From Bacteroidales bacterium (GTDB lineage Bacteria; Bacteroidota; Bacteroidia; Bacteroidales; VadinHA17), in the NCBI GenBank assembly GCA_024763075.1, contig JANTGF010000004.1:30853-94852 (forward strand): a DNA stretch of 64,000 bases, in the 5' to 3' direction. Under the pieces are notes generated by a model. That model was given only the letters and a program-made list of their open reading frames with translations, had not been told where the DNA came from and made no database searches. This document shows positions 21,261 through 30,582 of this stretch, piece after piece. Position 1 is the first letter of the stretch; each line of letters begins with the position of its first letter. Both the position numbers and the translations under genes were made by a program.

Positions 21261-23432
21261 ATGAGAACATTATTATTTTCTTTTTTGCTCTTTATTAGTA
21301 TTGAAGCTTTTTCAACCAATTATTATGTTGATTCAAGTGCAACAGGTGCTAACGACGGCACCAGTTGGGTAAATGCATTTGACAGCCTGCACATGGCACT
21401 TGCTGTGGCTGTAGATGCAGATACCATTTTTGTTGCTGAAGGTACTTACCGACCTGCGAATGGAACTGACAGGACGAAGTATTTTGTAATGCCCTCCGGT
21501 GTGAAATTGCTGGGAGGATATCCTTCCGGAGGAGGATGGCCAATGGTGGATGAGCATAAAACCATTCTGTCAGGTGACATAGGTGTGCTGAATGATGACA
21601 GCGACAATACCTATCATGTTATATTCTGTAACATGACCAACCCCCAAACAGAAATAGCACGCTTTTATATTACCGGTGGATATGCGGATGGAGATGGGGA
21701 TGACAGCAAAGGAGGTGGAATTGCCGTGAAGACAAATTCTTCCAGATATTACGGAGTATCAATCCGGGACTGTCGTGTATATGGGAACTATGCCAAATAT
21801 GGTGGCGGGATTGACATCACACGGAAAGGGGATATTTTCAATTCGATTATCGAAAACAACCGGTGTCTTGTTTCAGGTGGGGGGTTGTACATAAATACAG
21901 ATGGAAGGGCATATAATACGATTATTCGGAATAATTATTCCGCCGGTACGGGTGGTGGTGTATATATCGGAGGATTCAATCTGGCCCCGGGGCTTGTAAA
22001 TTGTTTAATTGCCAACAATGAGTCTGTAAGTTTCGGGAGTGGGATAGATCAGTATGAATCTTATGTAATCAACTGTACTATTGTTAATAATAAAGGTCCC
22101 GGAGGGGTCTATCAGAGTTCGATTTATTCAATAATGAGAAATTCTGTGATATGGGGGAACAAACCGTATCAGGTTCAAAATCCGGTTCTTTCAAAATTTG
22201 ACCATTGTGCGATTGCCGATCCGGATGTGGATTTTTCCTCCACAACCAATTTTTATATTGATACATTAAATGCAGGGTTGACGGATACGGTTAATTATCC
22301 TTATTTTCGTTCTCCGGCAGATTCAGTTGGAAATGTTTCTACTCCTGAGGGATTGCAAAATATGAAGGAAGCAGACTGGTATATTGATCCCGGATCTGCC
22401 TGTATCAACGCAGGGGATAAAGATCTCTATCCTGCTGCTGCTCCCGCATATGACCTTTTGGATAATCCGAGAATAATTCTTGACACCATTGACATTGGGG
22501 TCTCCGAAGCTTTGATTGATGTAAGCACTGACACTGCAATTGTTATTGATGACAGGGTAAATCTTTACGGCACTGTTCTTTTTTCCATTGATCTCAACTT
22601 AACCAAAAGAGGTTTTCTTTGGGGGGACAGTCCGGATAACATGGATCATAATATTGAAAATTCTACAAGTGGTTGGTACCGGTTTATGGATACAATACAG
22701 CAAATGCCCTCGCCTGGTATTTATTATTACCGTGCCTGGGGTATGGTTGGACCAAAGATATATCGTGCCCCCGTGAGGAGTTTTGTGGTTTGCTCAAGTG
22801 ATACTTCTTTTGAAAACGTCCGGATATGCAAAGGAGAAAGTTATACATTTCCTGATGGAAGTACCTGGGACAACATATCTGCCGATGGAGAATATATCAG
22901 TTATCTTTCTTCACAAACAGGATGTGACAGCCTTGTGATGACCAGTATCAGTGTCAGTGTGATAGATACATCTGTTAGCATTGACGGGATCATACTCACG
23001 GCTAATGCAGCGAATGCAGATTATCAATGGGTGAACTGTGATAATAATTATGAGATGATATCCGGGGCTACAGACCAGAGTTTTACTGCCTCACAAAACG
23101 GTAGTTATGCTGTGATAATCAATGAAAACAATTGCACCGATACTTCTTTTTGTTATGAGGTAACTACTGTTGGTATAAGAGAAACTGATTTTAAAGGTTC
23201 TTTTGAAATTTTCCCGAATCCGGTGAAAGACCAGTTAAATGTCAGATCAGGTGATGAAGACTTTTCCGGACAAATTGAACTTTGGAGTGTGCTGGGGAAG
23301 ATGGTTTACAGCCTGGGGGTGAAGGATGCCCGCACCATAAATATTTCCATGCCTGGTTTCAGGCCTGGAGTGTATTTTCTGAAAATACATGGGGAAAAGG
23401 AAACGGCTGTATTCAGGATTCTGAAAGAATAA
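21261..23432 (+). CDS. Right-handed parallel beta-helix secreted protein with T9SS type A C-terminal sorting domain
   Basis: YYVDSSATGANDGTSWVNAFDSLHMAL, beta-helix repeats, C-terminal FEIFPNPVKDQLNV ... GVYFLKIHGEKETAVFRILKE. Confidence 0.85.
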   Translation: MRTLLFSFLLFISIEAFSTNYYVDSSATGANDGTSWVNAFDSLHMALAVAVDADTIFVAEGTYRPANGTDRTKYFVMPSGVKLLGGYPSGGGWPMVDEHKTILSGDIGVLNDDSDNTYHVIFCNMTNPQTEIARFYITGGYADGDGDDSKGGGIAVKTNSSRYYGVSIRDCRVYGNYAKYGGGIDITRKGDIFNSIIENNRCLVSGGGLYINTDGRAYNTIIRNNYSAGTGGGVYIGGFNLAPGLVNCLIANNESVSFGSGIDQYESYVINCTIVNNKGPGGVYQSSIYSIMRNSVIWGNKPYQVQNPVLSKFDHCAIADPDVDFSSTTNFYIDTLNAGLTDTVNYPYFRSPADSVGNVSTPEGLQNMKEADWYIDPGSACINAGDKDLYPAAAPAYDLLDNPRIILDTIDIGVSEALIDVSTDTAIVIDDRVNLYGTVLFSIDLNLTKRGFLWGDSPDNMDHNIENSTSGWYRFMDTIQQMPSPGIYYYRAWGMVGPKIYRAPVRSFVVCSSDTSFENVRICKGESYTFPDGSTWDNISADGEYISYLSSQTGCDSLVMTSISVSVIDTSVSIDGIILTANAANADYQWVNCDNNYEMISGATDQSFTASQNGSYAVIINENNCTDTSFCYEVTTVGIRETDFKGSFEIFPNPVKDQLNVRSGDEDFSGQIELWSVLGKMVYSLGVKDARTINISMPGFRPGVYFLKIHGEKETAVFRILKE

Positions 23433-23485
23433 TCTGTTATGTTGTATGCTTTTTTTAAATTACACCAAGAAATAGAAAAAATGTC

Positions 23486-23516
23486 TTTGATATTTGAAAT
23501 ACATTCTTTTACTTTG
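23486..23516 (+). promoter_or_regulatory. Putative trp operon promoter
   Basis: TTTG (23486-23489), 19-nt spacer, TTACTTTG (23509-23516), one base off TAnnTTTG. Confidence 0.5.
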
Positions 23517-23534
23517 CAATGCAAACGAAAAGAA

Positions 23535-23594
23535 ATGCACAAGAATTCAAATAAAAACTGGTGGTGGCACAACGATTTTGACCAAACGTTGTGA
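23535..23594 (+). CDS. Putative trp leader peptide 1, MHKNSNKNWWWHNDFDQTL
   Basis: ATG...TGA 20-codon ORF with three consecutive TGG codons, directly followed by a terminator, upstream of trpE. Confidence 0.85.
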   Translation: MHKNSNKNWWWHNDFDQTL

Positions 23595-23616
23595 TAAGGC
23601 CTGTATATAATAATCT

Positions 23617-23648
23617 AAAAGCCTGTTGTGATCACAACAGGCTTTTTT
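23617..23648 (+). terminator. trp attenuator terminator 1
   Basis: AAAAGCCTGTTGTGATCACAACAGGCTTTT 30-nt perfect palindrome ending in a T tract. Confidence 0.9.
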
Positions 23649-23675
23649 AATGAAAGAGATAAATTATCAGAACTT

Positions 23676-23750
23676 ATGAGTAAAATATTAAACATACGGA
23701 TCATTTCAGGAAAAATGTCAGCATGGTGGTGGCAATGGAATGGAACATAA
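23676..23750 (+). CDS. Putative trp leader peptide 2, MSKILNIRIISGKMSAWWWQWNGT
   Basis: 25-codon ORF with TGG TGG TGG CAA TGG, followed by a second hairpin before trpE. Confidence 0.82.
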   Translation: MSKILNIRIISGKMSAWWWQWNGT

Positions 23751-23782
23751 ATTTAATGGGTGAAAACGGAAAAAGATGCACT

Positions 23783-23825
23783 AAGAGCGGCTTCCGGACA
23801 CCCGGAAGCCGCTCTTTGGTTTTAA
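23783..23825 (+). terminator. trp attenuator terminator 2
   Basis: AAGAGCGGCTTCCGG (23783-23797) / CCGGAAGCCGCTCTT (23802-23816), 15-bp perfect stem, then TGGTTTT. Confidence 0.8.
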
Positions 23826-23857
23826 GAATATAGTTTTAGACTTTTATATTTACACAA

Positions 23858-25261
23858 ATGAAAAACTACTATTTTAAAATAAACACAAAAGAAATACTGG
23901 CAGACATCCTGACTCCTGTGGCAGTTTACCTTAAACTCAGGGATGTCTTTCCAAATTCAATTCTTCTGGAAGGGGCTGACTTTAAAGCAGGTGAAAATCA
24001 ATATTCCTTTATTTGCCTGCAAGCCCTGGCAGGAGTTAAAGCTACCGGAAATATGCTGGAAACAAGATTTCCGGATGGACAACATGAAAAAATTGAGATG
24101 ACAAATCACAGGGAGGTTACGGATGTTTTAAGTGAGTATGCAAAAGTTTTTGTACCTGAAGAAGACATCAGCCATCTTCCTGCTACCGGACTTTTTGGCT
24201 ATTCAACTTATGAGGCGGTTACCTATTTTGAAGACATTCAGTTAAAAAGACCGGATAAAAACATGGTAATTCCGGATTTGTATTACCAGTTCTATAAATA
24301 CATTGTAGCTTTTAACCACACAAGCAATAAGATCATGCTCATTGAGCATCTGTTCAATGAGGATGCTTCCGGACTGCAATTTATTGAGGATCAGTTATTC
24401 AATCGAACTTTTGCAGTATATCCCTTTCATCCGGTAAACGGGGAAACTTCCAATCTGACGGATGAAGAGTACAAAAATATAGTTACCAAAGGAAAACAAC
24501 ACTGCCTGCGGGGAGATGTGTTTCAGATAGTATTATCACGGAGTTTTAGCCAGCAGTTTACCGGAGATGAATTTAATGTTTACCGTGCACTACGTTCAAT
24601 TAATCCTTCTCCCTACCTGTTTTATTTTGATTTTGGGAATTTTAAATTGTTTGGATCTTCTCCGGAAGCCCAGTTAAAGACCGGTTATGGAAAGGCACAT
24701 ATCAACCCGATTGCAGGTACTTTTATGCGAACAGGGAATGATAAAGAAGACAGGGAGCTGGCGAAAAAATTATCGCTGGATCCTAAAGAAAACAGTGAGC
24801 ATGTAATGTTGGTCGATCTTGCCAGGAACGACCTGAGTCGAAATGCCGATGAAGTAAAACTAAATTATTTCAGAGAAATCCATTACTACTCTCATGTTTT
24901 GCATATGGTTTCTGAAGTGGAAGGGAAGATTAGAGAAGGTACGGATCCTATACGGATTTATGCCGATACTTTTCCGGCAGGAACTTTATCAGGGGCACCA
25001 AAATACAGGGCTATGGAACTGATTGATAAATATGAAAACCAGGCCCGTGGATTTTACGGAGGTTGTATTGGAATTATTGGCTTAGAAGGAAAAATTAACC
25101 TGGCTATTACCATACGTTCATTCATGAGTAAAGACAATACACTGCATTATCAGGCGGGAGCCGGGATTGTTGCAGAATCCTCTGAGGAAAGTGAGCTAAA
25201 AGAAGTAAAAAATAAACTGGCAGCACTGAAGAAAGCCATTGTTGAAGCAACTGAAATTTGA
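23858..25261 (+). CDS. trpE: Anthranilate synthase component I
   Basis: Chorismate-binding domain: DVFQIVLSRSF, GSSPEAQLKT, PIAGTFMRTG, GTLSGAPKYRAMELID. Confidence 0.95.
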   Translation: MKNYYFKINTKEILADILTPVAVYLKLRDVFPNSILLEGADFKAGENQYSFICLQALAGVKATGNMLETRFPDGQHEKIEMTNHREVTDVLSEYAKVFVPEEDISHLPATGLFGYSTYEAVTYFEDIQLKRPDKNMVIPDLYYQFYKYIVAFNHTSNKIMLIEHLFNEDASGLQFIEDQLFNRTFAVYPFHPVNGETSNLTDEEYKNIVTKGKQHCLRGDVFQIVLSRSFSQQFTGDEFNVYRALRSINPSPYLFYFDFGNFKLFGSSPEAQLKTGYGKAHINPIAGTFMRTGNDKEDRELAKKLSLDPKENSEHVMLVDLARNDLSRNADEVKLNYFREIHYYSHVLHMVSEVEGKIREGTDPIRIYADTFPAGTLSGAPKYRAMELIDKYENQARGFYGGCIGIIGLEGKINLAITIRSFMSKDNTLHYQAGAGIVAESSEESELKEVKNKLAALKKAIVEATEI

Positions 25262-29812: not shown

Positions 29813-30582
29813 ACAGAATTACAGAGCTCTTCAATAAGAAAAAGAGAAACGTTCTTTCTTTCTATTTTACAGCAGGTCATCCGGAGCCGGACTCCACTCT
29901 TTCTATCCTCAAATCCCTGGAAAAAAACGGAGCAGATATGGTTGAGATCGGGATGCCGTTTTCCGATCCTCTGGCAGATGGTCCTGTGATTCAGCAAAGC
30001 AGCCAGATAGCTCTGAAAAACGGAATGACAATTAAAAAGTTGTTAGCAGCCCTTGAATCTGTCAGAGAGGAGGTTACTATTCCGCTTTTGTGTATGGGGT
30101 ATTTTAATACAGTGCTGCAGTTCGGAATGGAAAACTTTTGCAAAACAATCAGTCAAATTGGTATTGACGGGGTGATATTGCCAGATTTACCCCTGGAAGT
30201 TTATTCGGAGAAATATCAGGCCATATTTGAAAGGTACGGCATTATCCCTGTTTTTCTGATTACTCCGGGAACTTCTGATGAACGTATCCGGCAAACTGAA
30301 AAGTATTCCAAAGGGTTTATCTATATGGTATCTTCGGCCTCGGTAACAGGAGCAAAAAAAGGCTTTGGCAATGAGCAACTTGCTTACTTTAAGCGGATAA
30401 AGGAAATGAATCTTTCAGTTCCGGTGATGGCCGGCTTTGGTATATCCGATAAATTTACCTTTAATCAGGTTTCAGATTATGCTGCCGGTGGGATTATAGG
30501 CAGTGCTTTTGTTTCTCACCTTCAAAAAGAAGGTGCTTCTGAAAATAGCATAGGGGAGTTTATAAAAAGGATTGTGAAGTAG
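29809..30582 (+). CDS. trpA: Tryptophan synthase alpha chain
   Basis: FYFTAGHPEPDSTLSIL, VEIGMPFSDPLADGPVIQQ, DGVILPDLPLEV; ATGA overlap with trpB. Confidence 0.95.
   Translation: MNRITELFNKKKRNVLSFYFTAGHPEPDSTLSILKSLEKNGADMVEIGMPFSDPLADGPVIQQSSQIALKNGMTIKKLLAALESVREEVTIPLLCMGYFNTVLQFGMENFCKTISQIGIDGVILPDLPLEVYSEKYQAIFERYGIIPVFLITPGTSDERIRQTEKYSKGFIYMVSSASVTGAKKGFGNEQLAYFKRIKEMNLSVPVMAGFGISDKFTFNQVSDYAAGGIIGSAFVSHLQKEGASENSIGEFIKRIVK

Follow-up and report, generated by a model that had tools for sequence, protein, structure and literature searches.

Tandem trp attenuators of Bacteroidota with a predicted antiterminator directed at the terminator loop

The trp operon and its tandem leaders

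The window, which is the whole stretch of 64,000 nucleotides analysed here, belongs to the Bacteroidales (Bacteroidota), and its closest named TrpE relatives are from Salinivirgaceae or unclassified Bacteroidetes MAGs (71-75% identity). Downstream of trpE lie trpG, D, C, F, B and A, the last of which reaches position 30582; these names are based on translations and gene order. Two complete Trp attenuators are present in series before trpE (23535-23816), and the order upstream of trpEGDCFBA is leader 1, terminator 1, leader 2, terminator 2 (Table 1). Screening of the region 23301-23860 revealed a single -7-like site, located ahead of leader 1, whose box is one base shorter than TAnnTTTG. Because the only -33/-7-like pair found, a weak one, precedes leader 1, the two attenuators probably act one after the other on a single transcript, and attenuators arranged in this way should multiply repression. 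To learn whether other operons share the design, His-rich leaders were also searched for in the same genome, and the first 20 of 31 CAY4 sites did not include a plausible leader with a terminator.

Table 1. Features of the trp leader region (positions in the window)
Feature	Position	Strand	Basis
Promoter-like pair (TTG, then TACTTTG), like Bacteroidota -33/-7 boxes, before leader 1	23487-23516	+	pattern scan, weak
Leader peptide ORF 1, MHKNSNKNWWWHNDFDQTL, 19 residues; stop TGA 23592-23594	23535-23594	+	sequence; WWW leaders ahead of trpE in most relatives
Three Trp codons (TGGTGGTGG), predicted stall site	23559-23567	+	sequence
Segment 1, CACAACG, partner of segment 2	23568-23574	+	sequence; 1:2 matched across leaders (z -3.7)
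Segment 2, CGTTGTGAT, overlaps stop codon; predicted antiterminator strand	23587-23595	+	sequence, folding, comparative matching, covariation
AGGC, can pair with GCCT (23621-23624) at start of segment 3	23597-23600	+	folding of this leader
Segment 3, rising arm of terminator 1, AAAAGCCTGTTGT	23617-23629	+	sequence
Terminator 1 loop, GATC; AUC predicted to pair with segment 2	23630-23633	+	sequence, folding, comparison
Segment 4: falling arm ACAACAGGCTTTT (23634-23646) plus T-run to about 23648	23634-23649	+	sequence
Leader peptide ORF 2, MSKILNIRIISGKMSAWWWQWNGT	23676-23750	+	sequence
GGGTG, predicted segment 2 of attenuator 2; pairs with CACCC (23799-23803, loop+4)	23758-23762	+	duplex -17.1, p 0.015; folding
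Terminator 2 hairpin: AAGAGCGGCTTCCGG, loop ACAC, CCGGAAGCCGCTCTT; weak T-run TGGTTTT	23783-23816	+	sequence
trpE, first gene of the controlled operon	23858-25261	+	

The WWW run of the first leader lies within a 19-codon ORF, 263 nt upstream of trpE, as in other attenuators that sense an amino acid through a run of its codons. The first-pass annotation had described four segments in this leader, and reading of the sequence confirmed all of them: CACAACG (23568-23574), CGTTGTGA (23587-23594, with the leader stop codon inside it), GTTGTGA (23625-23631) and TCACAAC (23632-23638). It had also stated that segments 3 and 4 pair perfectly. A hairpin does exist at this position, but GTTGTGA and TCACAAC abut, which leaves no room for a loop and rules out full pairing. 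The predicted terminator has a stem of 13 bp (23617-23629/23634-23646), a GATC loop and a T-run downstream. This correction matters because the loop bases belong to what segment 2 reaches: GUUGUGAU (23588-23595) can pair over 8 bp with AUCACAAC (23631-23638), which comprises three loop bases and the first five bases of arm 4.

Dinucleotide shuffles of the leader gave a chance of 0.005 for an 8-bp Watson-Crick match to loop+4 and a frequency of 0.006 for a 7-bp 1:2 helix in place, and both helices occurred together at 0.0003. The locus by itself is only moderately improbable, because the window has six copies of GTTGTGA or its complement; the weight of the evidence lies in the relatives. Neither is the loop/4 helix the sole strongest contact in this leader. 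AAGGCCUGU (23596-23604), right after the stop codon, can pair over 9 bp (one G-U) with the distal part of arm 4 (23637-23645), a second 2:4 register; a nested fold can hold only one of the two. Similar matches are also found in the nearest relatives L035 and L062.

Terminator 1 contains TGTTGTGATCACAACA, a perfect 16-base palindrome, which would be expected if it were a DNA operator for a regulator instead of an RNA element. The palindrome is not conserved: the loops of relatives break it (CATTTCA in L034, ATATCA in L035, ACTC in L092) while the arms, the T-run and the Trp leader are kept, and we consider an operator very improbable.

In the second attenuator (Table 1), the predicted GGGTG:CACCC pairing is extended by CGGAA (23767-23771) with TTCCG (23792-23796).

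Predicted folding in three ribosome states

Growing transcripts were folded with segments masked to mimic ribosome positions. For leader 1, folding with no ribosome yielded 1:2 plus 3:4, in which 1:2 prevents the antiterminator. When segment 1 was masked, as by a ribosome stalled on the Trp codons, segment 2 paired with loop/4 once 2-8 nt of arm 4 were out (-3.9 to -10.6 kcal/mol), aided by AGGC:GCCU. With a ribosome at the stop codon, the antiterminator was absent from the prefix folds. These results agree with the ribosome-dependent states that had been proposed for this leader, namely that stalling on the Trp codons frees segment 2 and that a ribosome at the stop allows 3:4.

The same analysis was applied to the relatives. 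The antiterminator was the minimum-energy fold at some exposure of arm 4 in 82% of leaders in the Trp-stalled state and in 5% with the ribosome at the stop, and its mean span was 6.3 nt for the real segment 2 versus 1.6 nt for shuffled ones. Masked folding and conservation thus both point to an antiterminator that excludes the terminator and is tied to ribosome position. The antiterminator was also seen in ribosome-free folds of 80% of the relatives' leaders, so the 1:2 helix does not give protection in every case.

With the whole of arm 4 exposed, the balance tips to 3:4, at -18.5 kcal/mol versus -10.6 kcal/mol for the antiterminator. The antiterminator is therefore metastable and must act kinetically, and the scheme depends on a kinetic trapping that the folding model suggests. 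This difference of 8 kcal/mol would also suit another explanation, in which 3:4 is a terminator too strong for a metastable 2:4 helix, leader 1 has degenerated and control lies with attenuator 2. We judge this improbable, because matching between antiterminator and terminator is kept across the phylum, including the first leaders of L035 and L062, and because the estimated refolding barrier is large relative to the passage time of the T-run. A heuristic path estimate placed the barrier from antiterminator to terminator at 11.8 kcal/mol for attenuator 1 and 14.9 kcal/mol for attenuator 2, with a median of 14.2 kcal/mol in 79 leaders.

Comparison of trp leaders across Bacteroidia

The regions upstream of 168 trpE loci were examined, some of them redundant between collections, and 152 contained a Trp-rich leader plus a terminator. 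Removal of sequences that were >80% identical left 96 non-redundant Bacteroidia leaders. Helix energies were compared with those obtained after swapping terminators among leaders, a conservative null since related clades share sequences. For the stop-proximal region, the match to its own terminator was far better than to swapped ones at the loop (z -11.8) and at loop+4 (z -8.5). There was no clear excess for arm 3 (z -1.7 to -1.8), and when the loop was left off arm 4, z was -2.2 to -2.5. Segments 1 and 2 were also matched to their own partners (z -3.7). The best helix takes in two or more loop bases in 64 of the 96 leaders versus about 34 with swapped partners, and 36 of these 64 helices include the stop codon.

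The proposal of the first-pass annotation that segment 2 competes by 2:4 instead of 2:3 pairing is therefore favoured, in that the far side of the hairpin appears to be targeted, with one refinement: specific matching is directed mainly at the loop. Its 1:3 pairing found no comparative support (z -1.8).

The loop pairs differ in sequence between lineages. The typical pair in Flavobacteriaceae is UCGUGA:UCACGA, and others are CCGUGAG:CUCACGG (L005), CUCGCUGUGUA:UACACAGCGGG (Chitinophaga, L061) and UUGAGUGA:UCACUCAG (Flammeovirga, L053). Covariation among homologues, on which the first-pass annotation had staked its proposal, was analysed for eight columns of a fixed MAFFT alignment of 89 leaders and exceeded all 1000 column shuffles. 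These columns were paired in 65.7% of cases versus 59.7% after shuffling (maximum of 1000: 63.4%), with 57 two-sided changes versus 30.5 (maximum 51), and the pairing also exceeded that obtained when the partner was slid by 1-3 columns. Because column shuffles ignore phylogeny, this covariation is support, not proof.

In the classical arrangement, segment 2 would mainly capture the rising arm, here through AGGC (23597-23600) and GCCU (23621-23624). This 4-bp helix is the first to appear as the chain grows (transcript ends at 23624-23632) and persists in the composite fold, and leaders L123, L131, L136 and L146 from other Bacteroidota lineages have strong 2:3 helices instead. Across the 96 leaders, however, arm 3 is matched neither by the stop-proximal region (z -1.7) nor by the stretch downstream of it (z 0.5, -0.6), whereas the loop is. 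We therefore regard a classical 2:3 switch as unlikely for this leader, in which the 4-bp contact is only an extension of the loop/4 helix.

The AGGC:GCCU composite with segment 3 was also considered as a general feature and rejected: it is prominent here, and across leaders its z is -0.6 to 0.5. Likewise rejected was a pairing with segment 3 of the stretch after segment 2 (consensus roughly GCYATTGT), which the Rfam model sets opposite the Trp codons.

According to these comparisons of sequence, the loop is the conserved target and the predicted design recurs through much of the phylum. Both antiterminator designs appear from sequence to exist in Bacteroidota, and the other lineages with long 2:3 helices suggest a change of antiterminator topology inside the phylum. 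Leaders L123, L131, L136, L141 and L146 carry such long helices of the classical type, e.g., CGGGGUUCU:AGAACCCCG. Outside the class Bacteroidia (L158-L173), a Trp-run leader plus terminator precedes trpE in most sampled genomes, and a match of the loop+4 type (AUCAGUG.. with ..CACUGAG) is present in L158 and L161. Several Flagellimonas/Muricauda genomes (L068, L070, L073, L088, L098) have the leader 430-500 nt upstream of trpE, with an extra reading frame between the two (about 35-150 nt upstream of trpE; …RREKQLKKWNRxWKINLINDFNPNWEDL…), which we take to resemble the end of a small GIY-YIG-type nuclease.

Tandem Trp attenuators were detected in 16 of the 152 loci, i.e., in the window and in L005, L035-L040, L042, L043, L047, L048, L052, L055, L062 and L077, and by eye also in L049 and L051; all are Bacteroidales-type genomes. 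The first leader peptide is near-invariant in Prolixibacteraceae (NTIWLPWWGLLT/A in L043, L047, L048, L049, L051, L052, L055 and L077), and in the lake Bacteroidia L036-L040 and L042 it is IWLWWGNTFLC/F. Part of this constancy reflects base pairing between the codons and RNA further downstream (CAATATGG..CCATATTG); a role of the nascent peptide is also conceivable.

Relation to known attenuators and proposed mechanism

The Bacteroid-trp RNA (Rfam RF01692), defined by Weinberg et al. 2010 (PMC2864571), resembles leader 1 in having a Trp-codon leader before Bacteroidetes trp genes and a hairpin of the 1:2 type in the same order, and these parts are present in the window. The window scores 29.3 bits (E 0.26), under the gathering cut-off of 49, though it is collinear over the whole model; the relatives L056, L068, L075, L087 and L103 are above the cut-off. 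The model stops at GGCUUGUC, corresponding to segment 3; as neither the loop nor segment 4 is included, it has no place for the loop/4 pairing. A Bacteroid-trp RNA has been noted before the trp operon of Flavobacterium psychrophilum (PMC6414381), and clues to leader-peptide attenuation of amino-acid operons have been reported for this species (PMC9723704).

The E. coli trp leader (RF00513) shares with leader 1 the Trp codons, the 1:2 and 3:4 hairpins and a ribosome at the stop codon that favours termination. Its antiterminator, however, is a 2:3 helix (GGGC:GCCC) with no loop pairing, whereas the conserved target in the window is loop+4. An Rfam model search with RF00513 matched the E. coli control but nothing in the window or elsewhere in the genome. 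Six annotated E. coli leaders served as further controls, five of them with usable terminators; thrL had none under our detector. The known 2:3 helices were recovered for trpL and pheL, with pheL alone significant by shuffling (p 0.007), and none of the five usable leaders had a significant loop match. Scores of the leader against RF04312 (trpB motif) and RF00506 (Thr_leader) were below cut-off and reflect generic hairpin-terminator resemblance.

A serial arrangement of two leader ORFs and attenuators ahead of a single operon is also described for Salmonella mgtCBR (PMC3641672), where the signal and the operon are different, whereas both leaders in the window are Trp-rich. No description of tandem trp leader-peptide attenuators was found in the literature searched. 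A pseudoknot with a terminator loop has been speculated for the unrelated fhsA motif (PMC11109978). For leader-peptide attenuators, no account of a loop/arm-4 antiterminator was found in the openly accessible literature searched, and an earlier description elsewhere is possible. What appears to be new is a predicted variant of antiterminator topology; ribosome-mediated attenuation itself is already known.

We consider it likely that the trp operon is controlled by ribosome-mediated transcription attenuation with a 2:4 antiterminator nucleated on the loop. From the sequence, the predicted pairings, their conservation and their covariation, we infer stalling, trapping and termination as follows. 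With no ribosome, 1:2 and then 3:4 would form and transcription would end. When charged tRNA-Trp is scarce, a ribosome would stall on the UGG codons, covering segment 1 and leaving the stop-codon segment 2 free. As the loop and the beginning of arm 4 exit the polymerase, segment 2 would pair with both before 3:4 closes, and the polymerase would read on past the kinetically trapped antiterminator. When Trp is plentiful, a ribosome at the stop codon would cover segment 2, and 3:4 would terminate.

In a textbook attenuator, the antiterminator has already taken the rising arm by the time the falling arm of the terminator is transcribed. A target consisting of the loop and the falling arm would shift this timing, confining the decision to a few nucleotides while arm 4 emerges. 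With somewhat less confidence, we propose that in much of the Bacteroidota the stop-codon segment begins pairing at the terminator loop, which serves as a built-in toehold for invasion of the falling arm, rather than occupying the rising arm in advance, and that some Bacteroidales have two such attenuators in series. If true, this would provide a testable mechanism of trp control for a large phylum, complete an Rfam family that is without its switch half, and suggest a design for synthetic attenuators.
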